A stretch of DNA of 25,358 bases, taken from positions 1-25,358 of IMG/VR virus record IMGVR_UViG_3300037069_000283; one strand, given 5' to 3'. A program made the position numbers and the translations under genes. Positions 2,463 to 17,450 of the stretch are shown one piece after another. The DNA comes from a virus. The notes under the pieces were generated by a model that ran no database searches, was not told the origin of the DNA, and saw only the letters and a list, made by a program, of their open reading frames with translations. Each line of letters starts with the position of its first letter. Positions within the stretch are counted from its first letter, which is position 1.

Positions 2463-2723
2463 ATGGTTACGGCTCCCAAATGCAAGGTCTGCGGCGTGGC
2501 TCACTTCGGGAGCGCGCATGTGTGGCCTAAGGTTAAGGACGTGACGACATCGGCGACCCCAGAGGAAAAGGCGTGGGCCGAGGCTGCTCACAAGTTAGAG
2601 CCTCAAGAGGTCTATGCCGCCGGGCGCACGATTGCCAAGTTCGATGCGGAGCCGACTGGCCCGAAGCGCGACCGGGCAGCCTACATGCGGGAATATCGCG
2701 CGCGGCAGAAGGGGAAAGAATGA
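2463..2723 (+). CDS. Small zinc-finger-like protein with basic C-terminal tail
   Basis: The 86-residue product starts with a C2H2-type metal site: C7-x2-C10, then H14 and H19 (CKVCGVAHFGSAHVW). The middle is acidic and helical. The C-terminal end (RDRAAYMREYRARQKGKE) is a basic amphipathic helix of a type often found at the end of small alphaproteobacterial phage proteins and likely binds nucleic acid. There is no ribosome-binding site; the promoter and palindrome immediately upstream point to a leaderless message under repressor control. It heads a coupled chain of small genes. The exact function is unknown. Confidence 0.7.
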   Translation: MVTAPKCKVCGVAHFGSAHVWPKVKDVTTSATPEEKAWAEAAHKLEPQEVYAAGRTIAKFDAEPTGPKRDRAAYMREYRARQKGKE

Positions 2724-3061
2724 TGTTCCTCTACATCATCACGGCCAGCGAGTTCTGCCATAAAATCGGCATGTCCGCCGATCCAAAGGCGCGGCTGAAC
2801 GCGCTAAGAACCGGCCACTATCAAGATCTGAAGCTAGTCTTCGAAGCTGAGATGCCCAGCCCTGAATGGGCTATATGGGGCGAGCGAGCGGTTCATAAGT
2901 ATTTTGCGTCCGTGAGGATACGAGGTGAATGGTTCACGGTGCCGGTTGAGGACGCCAAATGGGCGGTGTCGGTCGCTTCCGAGGATGCCGCTCTGGCTTT
3001 TTCGGAGGGATATGCGCTGCCATCGGACGTTCCATGGGAAGCAAGCGAAGCTGCTGCATGA
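2720..3061 (+). CDS. T5orf172/MUG113 domain protein (GIY-YIG nuclease superfamily)
   Basis: The 113-residue protein starts at an ATGA overlap (a second ATG follows at once). It matches the T5orf172/MUG113 group of the GIY-YIG superfamily: FLYIIT at 3-8, KIGMSADPKARLNAL at 15-29 with the conserved Arg25, then GERAVHKYF (54-62) with Glu55 and His59, and GEWF (69-72). The domain fills the protein, so it lacks a DNA-binding extension. Family members are predicted endonucleases of phages and plasmids, mostly uncharacterised. An AAGGGGAAAG ribosome-binding site lies just upstream. A nuclease activity is plausible, but the exact substrate is unknown. Confidence 0.8.
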   Translation: MMFLYIITASEFCHKIGMSADPKARLNALRTGHYQDLKLVFEAEMPSPEWAIWGERAVHKYFASVRIRGEWFTVPVEDAKWAVSVASEDAALAFSEGYALPSDVPWEASEAAA

Positions 3062-5215: not shown

Positions 5216-5280
5216 CCCCTTCCCAAATCACTCAAGCTCGTTCATTGTCCAAAACGTGGACCAAAGGACCGCTTCGACGC

Positions 5281-5727
5281 ATGGCTACGCCATTCATATT
5301 CGATCAGGCCATCGCCGACGAAATCTGTGAGCGCCTTGCGAACGGCGAAAGCCTCCGGTCCATCTGCGGCTCTGATCGCGATGACTTTATTCCCGGATCG
5401 ACTACAGTGTTCAAGTGGCTCGCGGAAAACACCAAATTCGCGGAGCAATACGCACACGCGCGGGAAGCCCAAGCGGACGCGATTTTCGATGAAATCCTCG
5501 ATATCGCTGATGATGCTCGCAACGACTGGATGGAGCGCAAGGACGCTGAAGGCCAAGGCGCTGGCTACGTCGAGAACGGCGAACACATCCAGCGCTCCCG
5601 CATCCGCATCGACGCGCGGAAGTGGATGGCCGGCAAGCTGAAGCCGAAGAAGTACGGCGAGAAGCTGGGCGTTGAGCATTCCCTGGATGAGAGTCTGAGG
5701 GCGTGGATGGTGTCACGCGATGGCTGA
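5281..5727 (+). CDS. terS: Terminase small subunit (Sf6-type)
   Basis: The 148-residue protein recognises the packaging site and loads the large subunit. It has an N-terminal helix-turn-helix (IADEICERLANGESLRSICG at 11-30, then STTVFKWLAEN at 40-50), a central helical oligomerisation part (EQYAHAREAQADAIFDEIL) and a conserved end IDARKWMAGKLKPKKYG (110-126), all typical of Sf6-like small terminases. The ATG at 5281 gives the usual start close to the first helix; TTG 5245 would add 12 residues, and neither has a strong ribosome-binding site. It overlaps the large subunit gene by eight bases. Confidence 0.9.
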   Translation: MATPFIFDQAIADEICERLANGESLRSICGSDRDDFIPGSTTVFKWLAENTKFAEQYAHAREAQADAIFDEILDIADDARNDWMERKDAEGQGAGYVENGEHIQRSRIRIDARKWMAGKLKPKKYGEKLGVEHSLDESLRAWMVSRDG

Positions 5728-7348
5728 CGGCTCGCTTCTCGCCGAGGCTCAGGTTGACGCGCTGAAGTGCGCGGACGACTTCGCTTATTTCGCCCGGCGC
5801 TGTTTGAAGATCAGGACCAAGAGCGGCGAGTTGAAGCCATTCATCCTCAATCGCTCGCAGCGCTATCTGCATGAGGCTATTGAGGACCAGATGCGCCGCA
5901 CCGGAAAGGTGCGAAAGTTGATCGTGAAGGGCCGGCAGATCGGCTCCAGCACGTACATCGAAGGGCGTCTTTACTGGCGCAATTGGAAGACCAAGAAGGG
6001 CACAGCGCTCAAGGCGTTCATCCTGACTCACGCGCAGGACGCCACCAACAATCTGTTCGGCATGGCCGAGCGCTTCCATAACAACATGCCTGACGCGCTG
6101 CGTCCGCTCACCAAGGCGGCCAACGCGAAGGAGTTGGTATTCGCAGACACCGAGTGCGGCTATCTCGTTTCCACTGCCGGCGCCAACGAGGTTGGGCGAA
6201 GCGATACGATCCAGCTCTTCCATGGATCTGAAGTACCATCCTGGCCAAACGCTCAGAAGCATTTCACTTCTCTCGTCACCACGGCGCTCGCGAAAGAGCC
6301 TGGCACTGAGGGTTATCTGGAGGCGACTGCCAAAGGGATTGGCGATGTCTTCCACCTCACGGCTCAAGCGGCGATCCGTGGCGAGTCGGAATATGAGGCC
6401 GTGTTCATCCCCTGGTTTTGGGGTGACGATTACCGCACACCGTGCCCCGAAGTGTGGGCTCAGGCCGTCCCGCCGAAATGGCAGGAATATGGCGTCCTGC
6501 ACGCGCTGGATTGGGATCAACTCTATTGGGCATTCGTCACCAACCGCGAACTGGCGAAGGCGCACAGCCTAGCGGATGACGAGCCTTGCTGGGTCTTCAA
6601 GCAAGAGTACCCGGCTACTTTCGATGAAGCGTTCCAATCCAGCGGCAACAGCTTCATTCCGGCTGTCAGTGTCACGCGGGCGCGTCAGAAGCGCATCGGC
6701 GCCGACAAGATCATTGGTCGTGGCCCGATCATCCTTGGTATCGATCCAGCGGCCCAGCGCGACAAGGTTGGGATCATTGACCGCTGCGGCCGGGTGATGG
6801 GCGAGCGTATCTGCGAACGCTGGGCGCCAAATCCCGATGTTGAATACGTCGGCGCGCGCATCGCCGCCATCATCAAGAAAATCAGCCCTGATGCTGTGAA
6901 CATCGACACGTCCGAGGGCTTTGGAGCGGCGCTGTACGCGTGGCTGTCCAACCACGGCTACGCTGATATCTGCAACGCGGTCAGCTTCGGCTCTGGCCCT
7001 GTAGGCTGCGGCCCGACTGGCGATGAACTCTACGCCAACCGTCGCGCCGAAATGTGGGACGTGATGCGGTTTTGGTTTGAGACGCCAGGCGGCGTGCAAA
7101 TTCCCGACGATGACGGATTTCACGCTGACGTGACGTCGCCTCAGTGGGGTCCTGGTCAGACGCGCAATTCGCCCACCACGAACGAGCTGATCATCGAGCC
7201 GAAAGACAAGATCAAGGAGCGCTTGGGCGCTTCCCCTGATCTTGGCGACGCCGCCGCTCTCACCTTCGCCGTTCCCTTCGCTGAGGGGATGCAGGCTCAG
7301 AACCAGCCACGCCAGCAGCGGCGCGGCAATTCCCGAACTGGATATTAG
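5720..7348 (+). CDS. terL: Terminase large subunit (packaging ATPase and nuclease)
   Basis: The 542-residue motor protein pumps DNA into the procapsid and cuts concatemers. A variant Walker A, VKGRQIGSST, lies at 69-78; the Walker B-like strand LFHGSEV ends near Glu171; the coupling motif appears as EATAKG (201-206). The RNase H-fold nuclease follows, with Asp342 (LGIDPA), Asp396 (NIDTSEG) and Asp507/Asp510 (SPDLGDAAALTF). The length is normal. The protein ends in a basic tail, RRGNSRTGY, which recurs almost unchanged at the end of a 47-residue protein next to the portal. In P22-type motors the C-terminal tail of this subunit docks on the portal. Confidence 0.95.
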   Translation: MADGSLLAEAQVDALKCADDFAYFARRCLKIRTKSGELKPFILNRSQRYLHEAIEDQMRRTGKVRKLIVKGRQIGSSTYIEGRLYWRNWKTKKGTALKAFILTHAQDATNNLFGMAERFHNNMPDALRPLTKAANAKELVFADTECGYLVSTAGANEVGRSDTIQLFHGSEVPSWPNAQKHFTSLVTTALAKEPGTEGYLEATAKGIGDVFHLTAQAAIRGESEYEAVFIPWFWGDDYRTPCPEVWAQAVPPKWQEYGVLHALDWDQLYWAFVTNRELAKAHSLADDEPCWVFKQEYPATFDEAFQSSGNSFIPAVSVTRARQKRIGADKIIGRGPIILGIDPAAQRDKVGIIDRCGRVMGERICERWAPNPDVEYVGARIAAIIKKISPDAVNIDTSEGFGAALYAWLSNHGYADICNAVSFGSGPVGCGPTGDELYANRRAEMWDVMRFWFETPGGVQIPDDDGFHADVTSPQWGPGQTRNSPTTNELIIEPKDKIKERLGASPDLGDAAALTFAVPFAEGMQAQNQPRQQRRGNSRTGY

Positions 7349-7350
7349 GC

Positions 7351-7584
7351 ATGGATTTCGGACAAGCGCTGACTCAACTGCGCGCTGGCGAGAAGATCGC
7401 GCGTGACGGCTGGAACGGCAAGGGGATGTGGCTGGAACTTCAGCGGCCTGATGCCAACTCCAAGATGACGCTTCCCTACATCTTCCTCAGCTATCCGCCG
7501 GGCGATGCTTACCCGGACGGCGCGCGCGTTCCGTGGCTGGCGTCCCAAACCGATCTGCTGGCCTACGATTGGGTGGTGGTGTGA
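7351..7584 (+). CDS. tad2: DUF2829 protein, Tad2 (Thoeris anti-defence) family
   Basis: The 77-residue protein matches DUF2829 across its length: MDFGQAL at the start, RAGEKIARDGWNGKGMWLEL (11-30) and PWLASQTDLLAYDW (61-74). Tad2, the founding anti-defence member, is a tetramer that captures the cyclic ADP-ribose signal made by Thoeris ThsB and so blocks the suicide response. The conserved GWNGKGM and WLASQTDLL motifs are both intact. It lies between large terminase and portal, joined by GTGA to the next small gene, so it would be made with late proteins unless another promoter exists. Family membership is clear; that this copy binds a signal molecule is inferred. Confidence 0.85.
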   Translation: MDFGQALTQLRAGEKIARDGWNGKGMWLELQRPDANSKMTLPYIFLSYPPGDAYPDGARVPWLASQTDLLAYDWVVV

Positions 7585-7778
7585 CCGAACCCCTCACCCA
7601 CGAGGATGGTTCGACCATCATCCTCTCTGTCCTACGCGATACCGTGAGCTTGACGGTCAGGGGTCCTACAGCACCCGCGTCACCTCCCGTGGTCCTCACC
7701 CTGGCTGAAGTCGAAGCGCTCCAGAAGACGCTGGGCACGATGGCGGCTCAAGTCCGAGGAGTGCGCGCCCGTGGCTGA
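7581..7778 (+). CDS. Small protein of 65 residues, unknown function
   Basis: GTG at 7581 overlaps the stop of the DUF2829 gene. The product has a strand-rich first half (STIILSVLRDTVSLTVRG) and a helical end (LTLAEVEALQKTLGTMAAQVRG). The gene overlaps the next one by eight bases. Small genes of this kind lie between terminase and portal in many alphaproteobacterial podophages, but I cannot assign a role. Its coupling to the Tad2 family gene might make it an accessory to that gene. Confidence 0.6.
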   Translation: MTEPLTHEDGSTIILSVLRDTVSLTVRGPTAPASPPVVLTLAEVEALQKTLGTMAAQVRGVRARG

Positions 7779-8058
7779 CACCGTGTCCCAACTCACCGCA
7801 GTTGAAGCCGAGCCTGATCGCCAGCGCATTGAGCGACTGGTTCGGTCCGTGCTCGACGGTCACTTTGCCGCTGGCGACGCCAATGTGGGGGGCTTCGCAT
7901 TCATGGTTTGGGATGTGAACGGTTCGAGCACATGCGAGTGCCGAAACGTGGACGGTCACATCCCCGAAATCCTGATCCCCGATTTCGTTCGCAATCGCCT
8001 CTTGGCCTTCAAGATCGAGAGCTGGACCATCGATACCGTAAATGAGGCGAGCGCATAA
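7771..8058 (+). CDS. Hypothetical protein of 95 residues
   Basis: GTG at 7771 overlaps the previous gene, and its stop shares a base with the portal ATG (TAATG). An N-terminal helix (EPDRQRIERLVRSVLDGHFA) precedes a strand-rich section (GGFAFMVWDVNGSSTCECRNV) and a segment IPEILIPDFVRNRLLAFKIE. There is no known motif that I recognise. Tight junctions on both sides show that it is a member of the packaging operon. Confidence 0.65.
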   Translation: MADTVSQLTAVEAEPDRQRIERLVRSVLDGHFAAGDANVGGFAFMVWDVNGSSTCECRNVDGHIPEILIPDFVRNRLLAFKIESWTIDTVNEASA

Positions 8059-10232
8059 TGGCTGACTCTCTCGGCTACGCCACGCGCCAAGTGGTTCCCG
8101 TCCCCGAGCCGCAAGGCCACATCGACACGTCCGCTCTCGAGCCAATGGAACAGGGCGATCCGTCGTCGCTGGCGATCCTCAACGCTTGGGCCAGCAGCGG
8201 CGGTGATATCTCCGACATGCTGCCTGATGGGGAGTTGTCCCGTCTCGGCGCTCAGACCATCCGCGAATGGCGTCTCGACCAGGGCTCACGCAAGGATTGG
8301 GTTGAGCGCGCGGAACACTACCTCGACCTTGCCGCGCAAGAGACCGATGACGACGACCGCGAGCCCATCTGGGAAAACGCCGCCGACGTTCACTATCCCA
8401 TCCTCTCGACCGCGACCGGCCAATTCCTAGCCCGCGCCTCTCCCGAACTGATCAAGGGCGACAAGGTGGTGGGGGTCAAGGTGTTCTCCCCGCCAAGCCA
8501 ACAGCCAAGCCCGGTGGAGGCCGCCAAGGCGGGTCCGCAGCCGCAGGACGAGCAACAGGCCCAACAAGCCGCGATGGCCCTCCAGCAAGCCGAACAGGCC
8601 CAGGCCAAGCAAGCGGCGATGATCTCGGCTCGGAACGCCAGAGCGGAGCGCGTCAAGCACTTCCTCAACTTCCTGATCTTCTACCGCATGGACGATTGGG
8701 AGGAAGACTCTGACCTGTTGCTCCTTCAGGCGTCGGCCATCGGGTCGGGGTTCAAGAAGGTCTACATGGGCGAGCGCGGTCTGCGGTCAGACTTCATGTC
8801 CGCGACCTGCCTGACCGTTCACAACGATGCCAAGAGCCTGCACACCTGCCCCCGGATCACGCAGGAATTTGAGGTCTACCCCAACGAGATCGAGGAGCGA
8901 AAGCGTTCCGGCGTCTATCGCAACGTGACCCTGGATGCTCTCGGCAGTGAAGACCCCGAAGCGCCTCGCACCTTCATCGAACAGCACCGCCTGGACGATC
9001 TCGACGGCGACGGCCTGGCCGAACCCTACATGGTCACGGTGGACGTGAAGACCATGCAGGTGATGAGCGTGGTCCCGTCCTACACGCCCGATGACATCAT
9101 CCTGAACAAGGAAACCGGCCAGGTCATCCGCATCGACCGGTGGCAACCCTTCGCCATGTTCACCTTCCTCCCTGACCCAAGGGGACGGTTCTACGGCATT
9201 GGGCTTGGCTCGCTCCTCGATAGCATCACAGCCACGATTGACACCCTGCTCAACCAGATGATCGACGCCAACACGGCGGCTATTGCGGGGGGTGGGTTCA
9301 TCGGGTCCGGTGTGCGCCTGCAAGGAAGCGGGCAGGGCGGTTCGCTGTTCTTCGGGCCGGGTGAGTTCAAGACGGTCAACTCGCCTGGGATCGATCTTCG
9401 CCAAGCGATCTGGGAGCGCACCGTTCCCAACCAGTCGCCCAACTCCATGAACCTGCTGGAACTGCTCCTCGGGGCGGCCAAGGACATCTCCAGCATCAAG
9501 GACGTAATCACCGGGGAAGCGCCTTCGACGGCTCCGGTGGGAACGACGCTGGCCCTGCAGAACCAGGCCCTGCAAGTCTTCTCCAGCATCTACAAGCGCA
9601 TCTATCGCGGCTTCCACGATGAGTTCAGGCTCATGTACCGCTGCCTCAAGCGCTGGGCCACGGACAAGGAGAAGTTCGAATATAACGAGCTGACCGGCGG
9701 GGATTTCGATCAGGACTTCCAAGGCGACGGAACCGACATCGAGCCGGTGGCCGATCCCACCGTTGTGACGAAGATGCAGAAGATCGCCAAGTTCCAGACG
9801 GTGATCCAGTTCGCTGAGTCCCCGGTGGGCATGGCGGCCGGTATGACCCAATCAGGCCCCGCTCAAGCCCTGGCGACCGACTTCCTCGACGCCATCGACT
9901 ACGACCGGCCCGAACGTCTGATCGCCCAGGTTCAACCCAACCCCGAACTGATCGCCAAGACGCAAGAGACGCAAGCCGCCGCCGAGTTGAAGGGCGCGCA
10001 GGCGATGAAGACCAAGGCGGAAGTCGGGGCTCTGGTCGGCGACGCTCACAAGACGGCGGCCGAGACGACTCACATTCAAGCCCAGACCGTGAAGACCATC
10101 GGCGAGACGGCGCACTCAACGCACCTGATGCACGTCATCGCCGATCAGATCCACGATAGCGGCTCGCTGCAACCGCCCCCCGAAGGAGAGAGCGATGGAC
10201 AGACCAGTCCCAGCACCAACAGCCCCGCGTGA
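8058..10232 (+). CDS. Portal protein (P22 gp1-like)
   Basis: At 724 residues this matches the large P22-type portals. Conserved blocks include DREPIWENAADVHYPI (100-115), the wing region with HFLNFLIFYRMDDWEEDSD (201-219), RWQPFAMFTFLPDPRGRFYG in the core, and a late Ala-, Lys- and Gln-rich helix (AELKGAQAMKTKAEVGAL) that would build the barrel. Residues about 145-190 form a Gln/Ala/Pro-rich insert of low complexity. The portal forms the dodecameric DNA channel, binds large terminase during packaging, and later binds the gp4-like adaptor encoded at 16737. The start follows the common TAATG overlap. Confidence 0.93.
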   Translation: MADSLGYATRQVVPVPEPQGHIDTSALEPMEQGDPSSLAILNAWASSGGDISDMLPDGELSRLGAQTIREWRLDQGSRKDWVERAEHYLDLAAQETDDDDREPIWENAADVHYPILSTATGQFLARASPELIKGDKVVGVKVFSPPSQQPSPVEAAKAGPQPQDEQQAQQAAMALQQAEQAQAKQAAMISARNARAERVKHFLNFLIFYRMDDWEEDSDLLLLQASAIGSGFKKVYMGERGLRSDFMSATCLTVHNDAKSLHTCPRITQEFEVYPNEIEERKRSGVYRNVTLDALGSEDPEAPRTFIEQHRLDDLDGDGLAEPYMVTVDVKTMQVMSVVPSYTPDDIILNKETGQVIRIDRWQPFAMFTFLPDPRGRFYGIGLGSLLDSITATIDTLLNQMIDANTAAIAGGGFIGSGVRLQGSGQGGSLFFGPGEFKTVNSPGIDLRQAIWERTVPNQSPNSMNLLELLLGAAKDISSIKDVITGEAPSTAPVGTTLALQNQALQVFSSIYKRIYRGFHDEFRLMYRCLKRWATDKEKFEYNELTGGDFDQDFQGDGTDIEPVADPTVVTKMQKIAKFQTVIQFAESPVGMAAGMTQSGPAQALATDFLDAIDYDRPERLIAQVQPNPELIAKTQETQAAAELKGAQAMKTKAEVGALVGDAHKTAAETTHIQAQTVKTIGETAHSTHLMHVIADQIHDSGSLQPPPEGESDGQTSPSTNSPA

Positions 10233-10338
10233 GGAAAAGCCTCGTGAGGCGACCTATCAGGATTGGGTGCGCGCCGTGAAACAAGAGCAGCTTGAGGCAC
10301 GCGTTCCTCGTCGTGGCAATAGGCGGACGGGCTACTGA
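10195..10338 (+). CDS. 47-residue protein sharing the large-terminase C-terminal peptide
   Basis: ATG at 10195 has a strong AAGGAGAG site and lies inside the portal gene's 3' end in another frame. The product starts MDRPVPAPTAPREEKP, continues with a helix (TYQDWVRAVKQEQLEA) and ends RRGNRRTGY. The large terminase ends RRGNSRTGY, identical at eight of nine positions. Most of the identical codons differ in the third base, so the match is at protein level, not a recent DNA copy. A common binding site, perhaps on the portal, would explain it. The function is unknown. It joins the next gene by TGATG. Confidence 0.7.
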   Translation: MDRPVPAPTAPREEKPREATYQDWVRAVKQEQLEARVPRRGNRRTGY

Positions 10339-16736: not shown

Positions 16737-17450
16737 ATGAGTGTTTCATGGTCGTTAACAGCCGGTCAACTCATCACCCGCGCCTATCGCTTGCTGGGGT
16801 ATCTCGAAAATCCCTGGGTTCCCGACGAAGACCAGATGGCGCAAGGCATGTTGGCGCTGAATGCCATGCTCAAGAGCCTCCAAAGTGATGGCATTAACCT
16901 TTACCGCCAGGAACGCCGCGAGATCGCCGTTCCTGCGATGACTGCGGAAATCGACATCACGCCTCGGGTGATGGGGGTGGAGCAAATATCCTGGGTCGTT
17001 CAAGGGGGTTCGAATCCTTACCATCGTCCCATGGGAGAGTTCTCGTGGGTGGATTACTGGAATCTGCCGAACCCCAATAGCAATACCACGAGCGGCCCAT
17101 CGGTCTGGATGTTCAACCGCCAGAACACCTCGTCATCCGTCTTCATCTGGCCGCTCGCCACGCTAGGCGGCACGATGGTCGCATCTGTCGGCCGAACGGT
17201 TGAAGACGTGAATGACCCGTCAGACCAAACCGACTTCCCTGACGAGTGGACTGAAACCATGGAATATAATTTGGCGGACCGCCTCATGGACGACCAAGGC
17301 GTTGCGGCGTCGGACCCAGAAACCGCCAGACACATCACCAACCACGCCCTGGTGCTTTATCGCCGACTGTCTGACTTCGACCGGCCAACGTCGATCTGGA
17401 TGCGACCGGTCCGGTTGACGGGCTCTGGGTATGGTTCACGTCGTCGCTAA
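16737..17450 (+). CDS. P22 gp4-like tail accessory/head-tail adaptor protein
   Basis: The 237-residue protein opens with TAGQLITRAYRLLGYLENPW, PDEDQMAQGMLALNAMLKSLQSDGI, the pattern of the gp4 family that forms the ring under the portal and closes the packed head. Later parts, FIWPLATLGGTMVASVGRTVED and EWTETMEYNLADRLMDDQG, also fit. A strong GGGGAGGG site precedes the ATG at 16737. Both ends are bordered by HNH genes on the opposite strand; the last 116 bases are overlapped by HNH 2. The N-terminus seems complete, so the gene is likely functional. Confidence 0.85.
   Translation: MSVSWSLTAGQLITRAYRLLGYLENPWVPDEDQMAQGMLALNAMLKSLQSDGINLYRQERREIAVPAMTAEIDITPRVMGVEQISWVVQGGSNPYHRPMGEFSWVDYWNLPNPNSNTTSGPSVWMFNRQNTSSSVFIWPLATLGGTMVASVGRTVEDVNDPSDQTDFPDEWTETMEYNLADRLMDDQGVAASDPETARHITNHALVLYRRLSDFDRPTSIWMRPVRLTGSGYGSRRR

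Follow-up and report, generated by a model that had tools for sequence, protein, structure and literature searches.

In phage P22, the large terminase subunit (TerL) deprived of residues 483-499, a basic and proline-rich C-terminal tail, does not bind the portal, and phages T3 and lambda are cited in the same work for docking of the TerL tail on the portal (PMC5290284). For D6E, the C-terminal arm was described to contribute to the ATPase site of TerL itself (PMC5727402). The window, that is, the whole stretch of DNA analyzed here, is a 25,358-base virus record of a P22-like phage (Table 1). Its P22-like module comprises an Sf6-type small terminase subunit (TerS), an SU10-type portal, a capsid protein, Ad3-like and Hc3-like neck proteins, and TerL. 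The TerL profile matches the structures of T4 gp17 and Sf6 gp2, and the window thus combines an Sf6/P22-type TerS with a T4/Sf6-type TerL, as is characteristic of P22-like packaging modules. Similarly, both components of a P22-like neck, the head closure protein Hc3 (gp10-like) and the adaptor Ad3 (gp4-like), are present, the neck proteins being identified by profile searches (phrog_578, E 7e-68; Phage_stabilise, E 1e-9; and phrog_637, E 2e-5 (Ad3-like gene 16737-17450)). Upstream of the packaging genes, positions 2573-3061 encode a protein with a T5orf172/MUG113 (GIY-YIG-like) domain, and a Tad2-like (anti-Thoeris) gene is located immediately 3' of terL, in an interval filled with diverse cargo in the relatives.

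Table 1. Features of the packaging region, in window positions
Feature	Positions	Strand	Basis
Terminase small subunit (Sf6 type)	5245..5727	+	Pfam Sf6_terminase E 5e-44; phrog_1482
Terminase large subunit TerL, 542 aa	5720..7348	+	phrog_2 E 2e-15; AF2 pLDDT 89
TerL C-terminal tail RRGNSRTGY	7319..7345	+	AF2 disorder; tail similarity tracks portal similarity
Tad2-like gene, terL-portal interval (cargo region)	7351..7584	+	Pfam Tad2-like E 9e-23
Portal protein, 724 aa, presumed docking partner for both tails	8058..10232	+	Pfam SU10_portal E 1e-11; phrog_1216
Probable ribosome-binding site AGGAGA of the small gene	10184..10189	+	Sequence
Small protein, 47 aa	10195..10338	+	Homologues L001, L018/L119, L123, L126; pooled pN/pS 0.53
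Predicted helix, small-protein residues 21-36, including conserved QDWV	10255..10302	+	AF2 pLDDT 75; T-x-QDWV invariant in five members
Small-protein C-terminal tail RRGNRRTGY	10309..10335	+	R-x-G-Y at stop codon in 5/5 members; synonymous codon changes

The C-terminal peptide shared by TerL and a 47-residue protein

TerL of the window terminates in ...QPRQQRRGNSRTGY followed by TAG, and the 47-residue protein in ...ARVPRRGNRRTGY followed by TGA. Eight residues of the nine in the two tails agree, and the codons at these shared residues (cgg/cgt, cgc/cgt, ggc/ggc, aat/aat, cga/cgg, act/acg, gga/ggc, and tat/tac) differ in six cases. Direct reading of the sequence and of the codons thus bears out both initial observations of the sequence-only reading, the near-identical ends at the stop codon and the six differing codons. 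The small ORF appears to be translated: AGGAGA is positioned five bases 5' of its ATG, its first bases coincide with the last 38 of the portal gene, and its TGA shares bases with the ATG of the gene that follows.

The earlier reading had proposed a search for homologues of the small gene in related phages. Searches with TerL, the portal, and the small protein yielded more than 100 loci, and homologues with R-x-G-Y ends were found in four further distinct phages, L001 (= L002), L018 (= L119), L123, and L126. All five members, the window included, possess the T-x-QDWV helix motif followed by a basic R-x-G-Y-COOH end, and TerL has a tail of the same type in every small-protein phage whose contig includes it. 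The homologues are confined to phages with basic R-x-G-Y TerL tails and the portal type of that class. The location of the small gene at the end of the portal gene, to which attention had been drawn, is correct for the window, where the small gene follows the portal gene, but does not extend to the relatives: in L001, L018, and L126 it is situated in the terL-portal interval, and in L123, where terL is off the contig, it is immediately 5' of the portal gene. For the small protein, AlphaFold predicts a single helix with extended ends, and searches of Pfam and PHROG gave no matching family. No homologues were found by tblastn in cultured phages, nor in 385 genomes from the class of a Sphingomonas genome, the latter search having had no positive control and hence being weak.

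Comparison of the coding sequences demonstrates purifying selection on the small protein, with a pooled pN/pS of 0.34 in the helix and 0.58 in the tail, and with two or three codons used for each of the invariant R, G, and Y of the tail while synonymous sites are near saturation. Near-identical gene pairs were uninformative for the selection test, as the small genes of L001 and L002, and likewise those of L018 and L119, are identical. The suggestion that the likeness is kept at the protein level is thus supported for both tails. However, around a dozen members of the clade lack the small gene although their TerL possesses the tail; because of this patchy distribution, the small protein is dispensable for this motor and cannot constitute a general step of it.

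The peptide is short and basic C-terminal ends are common, so that a coincidental likeness of two basic C-termini had to be considered. The ungapped 9-mer score is 44 for the tail pair of the window and 37 for that of L001, whereas unrelated ORFs reach at most 28 (approximately 24,000 ORF ends). Among 17,727 distinct ORFs (30 residues or longer, all loci; the window ORF being listed through its copy L016), 25 have an R-x-G-Y ending, and these are TerLs, the small-protein family, one HNH protein (L142), and two unrelated ORFs. With the 9-mer score far above the background and the likeness recurring in five lineages, coincidence is very improbable.

A stricter expectation is that each small-protein tail covaries with TerL of its own phage. 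In the four phages with both genes, own-phage pairing is the best of 24 permutations when these pairs are taken alone, but this preference is lost when 21 distinct TerL tails of the clade serve as the reference. The own TerL ranks 1, 1, 15, and 7 of 21 at nine residues; depending on the compared length, it is first (tied) in the window, first or second in L001, approximately 14th to 18th in L018, and 7th to 16th in L126, the combined p value from these four pairs being a non-significant 0.12-0.30 over several lengths. The own-phage covariation proposed as a check is therefore seen in the window and L001, partly through ties, and not in L018 and L126. On these few pairs, two of them off their own TerL, the small tails match a clade-wide TerL motif and not demonstrably the tail of their own phage.

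The TerL tail and the portal

Residues 528-542 of TerL are disordered in the AF2 prediction (pLDDT <50), and by both prediction and sequence this protein has the flexible basic C-terminal end typical of a portal-docking TerL tail. Similarities of the tail, the TerL body, and the portal were compared across 87 phages using partial correlations. The tail is correlated with the portal given the TerL body (r = 0.55, permutation p 0.002, the lowest value attainable with 500 permutations), and not with the TerL body given the portal (r = -0.03, p 0.77); these are correlations on related sequences, and because phages are taken to be exchangeable in the permutation, the p values are on the optimistic side. 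Hence, variation in the tail goes with the portal and not with the enzyme body, linkage to further head genes being only partly excluded. The portal link is confined to the last 3-20 residues of TerL (0.46-0.55), all other 30-residue segments giving values from -0.14 to 0.12; as this holds even for the segment that adjoins the tail, mere linkage between neighbouring stretches of DNA is an unsatisfactory explanation. Within 39 alignable portals the link persists (0.35, p 0.003). Correlation by portal segment, used to look for the docking site, gave a diffuse signal with no single prominent segment.

TerS shows no link to the TerL tail (-0.01) and was rejected as its partner. The genes after the portal retain a weaker link to the tail given the portal (0.186) than does the portal given those genes (0.307), and the portal is therefore the best but not the only candidate partner. 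These results agree with the work on portal binding in P22 (PMC5290284) and also with the discussion of a C-terminal arm in D6E (PMC5727402). They also support the view, taken in the sequence-only reading, that the terminase tail docks on the portal in P22-like motors: the TerL tail behaves like a docking element that tracks the portal and neither TerS nor the TerL body.

TerL itself, DNA, or a head protein other than the portal might instead be bound by the shared tail, in which case the small protein would regulate or bridge TerL. The role of the D6E arm in the ATPase site (PMC5727402) and the basic character of both tails would suit this explanation, and another head protein could be the partner, since the tail is encoded in the neighbourhood of the portal gene and also shows a link to the later genes. 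Nevertheless, we consider it unlikely in view of the absent links to the TerL body and TerS and of the stronger link to the portal when the later genes are accounted for; a tail acting as an arm of TerL's own ATPase was likewise ranked below portal docking.

The TerL tails of the family are of the basic R-x-G-Y, GR[SN]xxTGY, and G-x-WMG types; these and the DKVAGY ends co-segregate with portal subfamilies, even when TerL bodies are similar (e.g. L067 versus L065). In L091, where TerL ends in KVAGY, a 54-residue ORF after the portal (5356-5520) ends in KKKKKKKSRPGY and may likewise be a small basic protein terminating in GY. Long in-frame insertions of intein-like appearance are seen near the C-terminal end of the TerL ORFs L164:999-3281, L165:1122-3170, and L167:1092-3278, from phages of Acinetobacter, Rhodobacteraceae, and Tetrasphaera.

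A TerL tail on an HNH endonuclease

In the L142 locus, a gene for an HNH_3 endonuclease (5589-7846) located immediately after terL carries the TerL tail in synonymously recoded form. The endonuclease ends in ASNQPQQPRGVRRKRAGY and TerL in AQNQPNSPRGVRRKRAGY, the last 11 residues being identical and their codons mostly synonymous, and the last 40 codons of terL have a GC3 of approximately 0.40, compared with 0.79 for the gene. The arrangement is consistent with a homing-type insertion in which terL received a new end, the old end staying with the HNH gene. TerL tails can thus be captured by mobile DNA, possibly without function, and the small protein might have arisen in the same manner, mobile DNA having entered the terL end and provided a new one, while the displaced tail came to terminate an ORF located downstream and persisted as a non-docking relic. 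Related HNH genes do adjoin terL in other phages, and the terL-portal interval holds varied cargo. However, a nuclease domain and a recoded terL end occur together in L142 only. The small protein, with no Pfam or PHROG match, lacks an HNH domain and has a conserved body, GC3 of the window terL end is normal, and R, G, and Y are retained in all five members despite near-saturated synonymous sites; such an origin is therefore rather improbable for the small gene.

Possible role of the small protein and comparison with known systems

Because the peptide that it shares with TerL changes there with the portal, the small protein probably binds the same portal ring. We tentatively favour an accessory role in packaging or assembly, in which the protein docks on the portal by a TerL-type tail and either competes with TerL or brings a partner. 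Its tail would be the same C-terminal peptide that TerL uses on the portal, a basic stretch with R-x-G-Y-COOH, placed behind the short helix T-x-QDWVRAV. From these sequence features we infer that the small protein most likely would use this tail to bind the portal at the terminase site, either ahead of TerL docking or upon TerL departure, and that it would consequently compete with TerL, with possible effects on the timing and release of the motor, or would carry a helix-bound partner to the portal. In the sequence-only reading, competition by such a protein could release the motor at headful, or the protein could hold the portal until packaging. More specifically, it could be a phage-encoded mimic of the docking tail, a free protein occupying the TerL site of the portal and timing motor docking or release, which we regard as conceivable but doubtful. 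The exit of the motor from the portal at full head is not fully settled, and a natural docking-tail protein would be a ready probe of this step. In addition, as the extreme C-terminal residues of TerL track the portal family and the remainder of the protein does not, they offer a sequence-based map of motor-portal compatibility.

No small protein carrying a TerL-type docking end was found in the literature searched, and the described systems resemble this one in part. The packaging chaperone gpFI of lambda is likewise a small accessory that could assist or pace docking of the terminase on the prohead, but it is bound to the capsid lattice (PMC4856287), and a gpFI-like role was ranked lower; the small protein matches no known packaging-chaperone family in Pfam or PHROG. 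The head-tail adaptor gp4 (Ad3) of P22 also has an extended C-terminal tail, which is inserted into the portal (PMC5290284); the window, however, has its own Ad3-like gene, which the small protein does not match, and this candidate was ranked lower as well. Free-standing HNH endonucleases adjacent to terL are encoded in the same terL-portal interval, and that of L142 ends in a TerL tail, whereas the small protein has no nuclease domain. With the portal-docking tail of P22 TerL, described also for T3 and lambda, the window phage shares a TerL C terminus that is flexible, basic, and proline-containing and that is linked to the portal, and differs in having a second, separate small protein with the same end.
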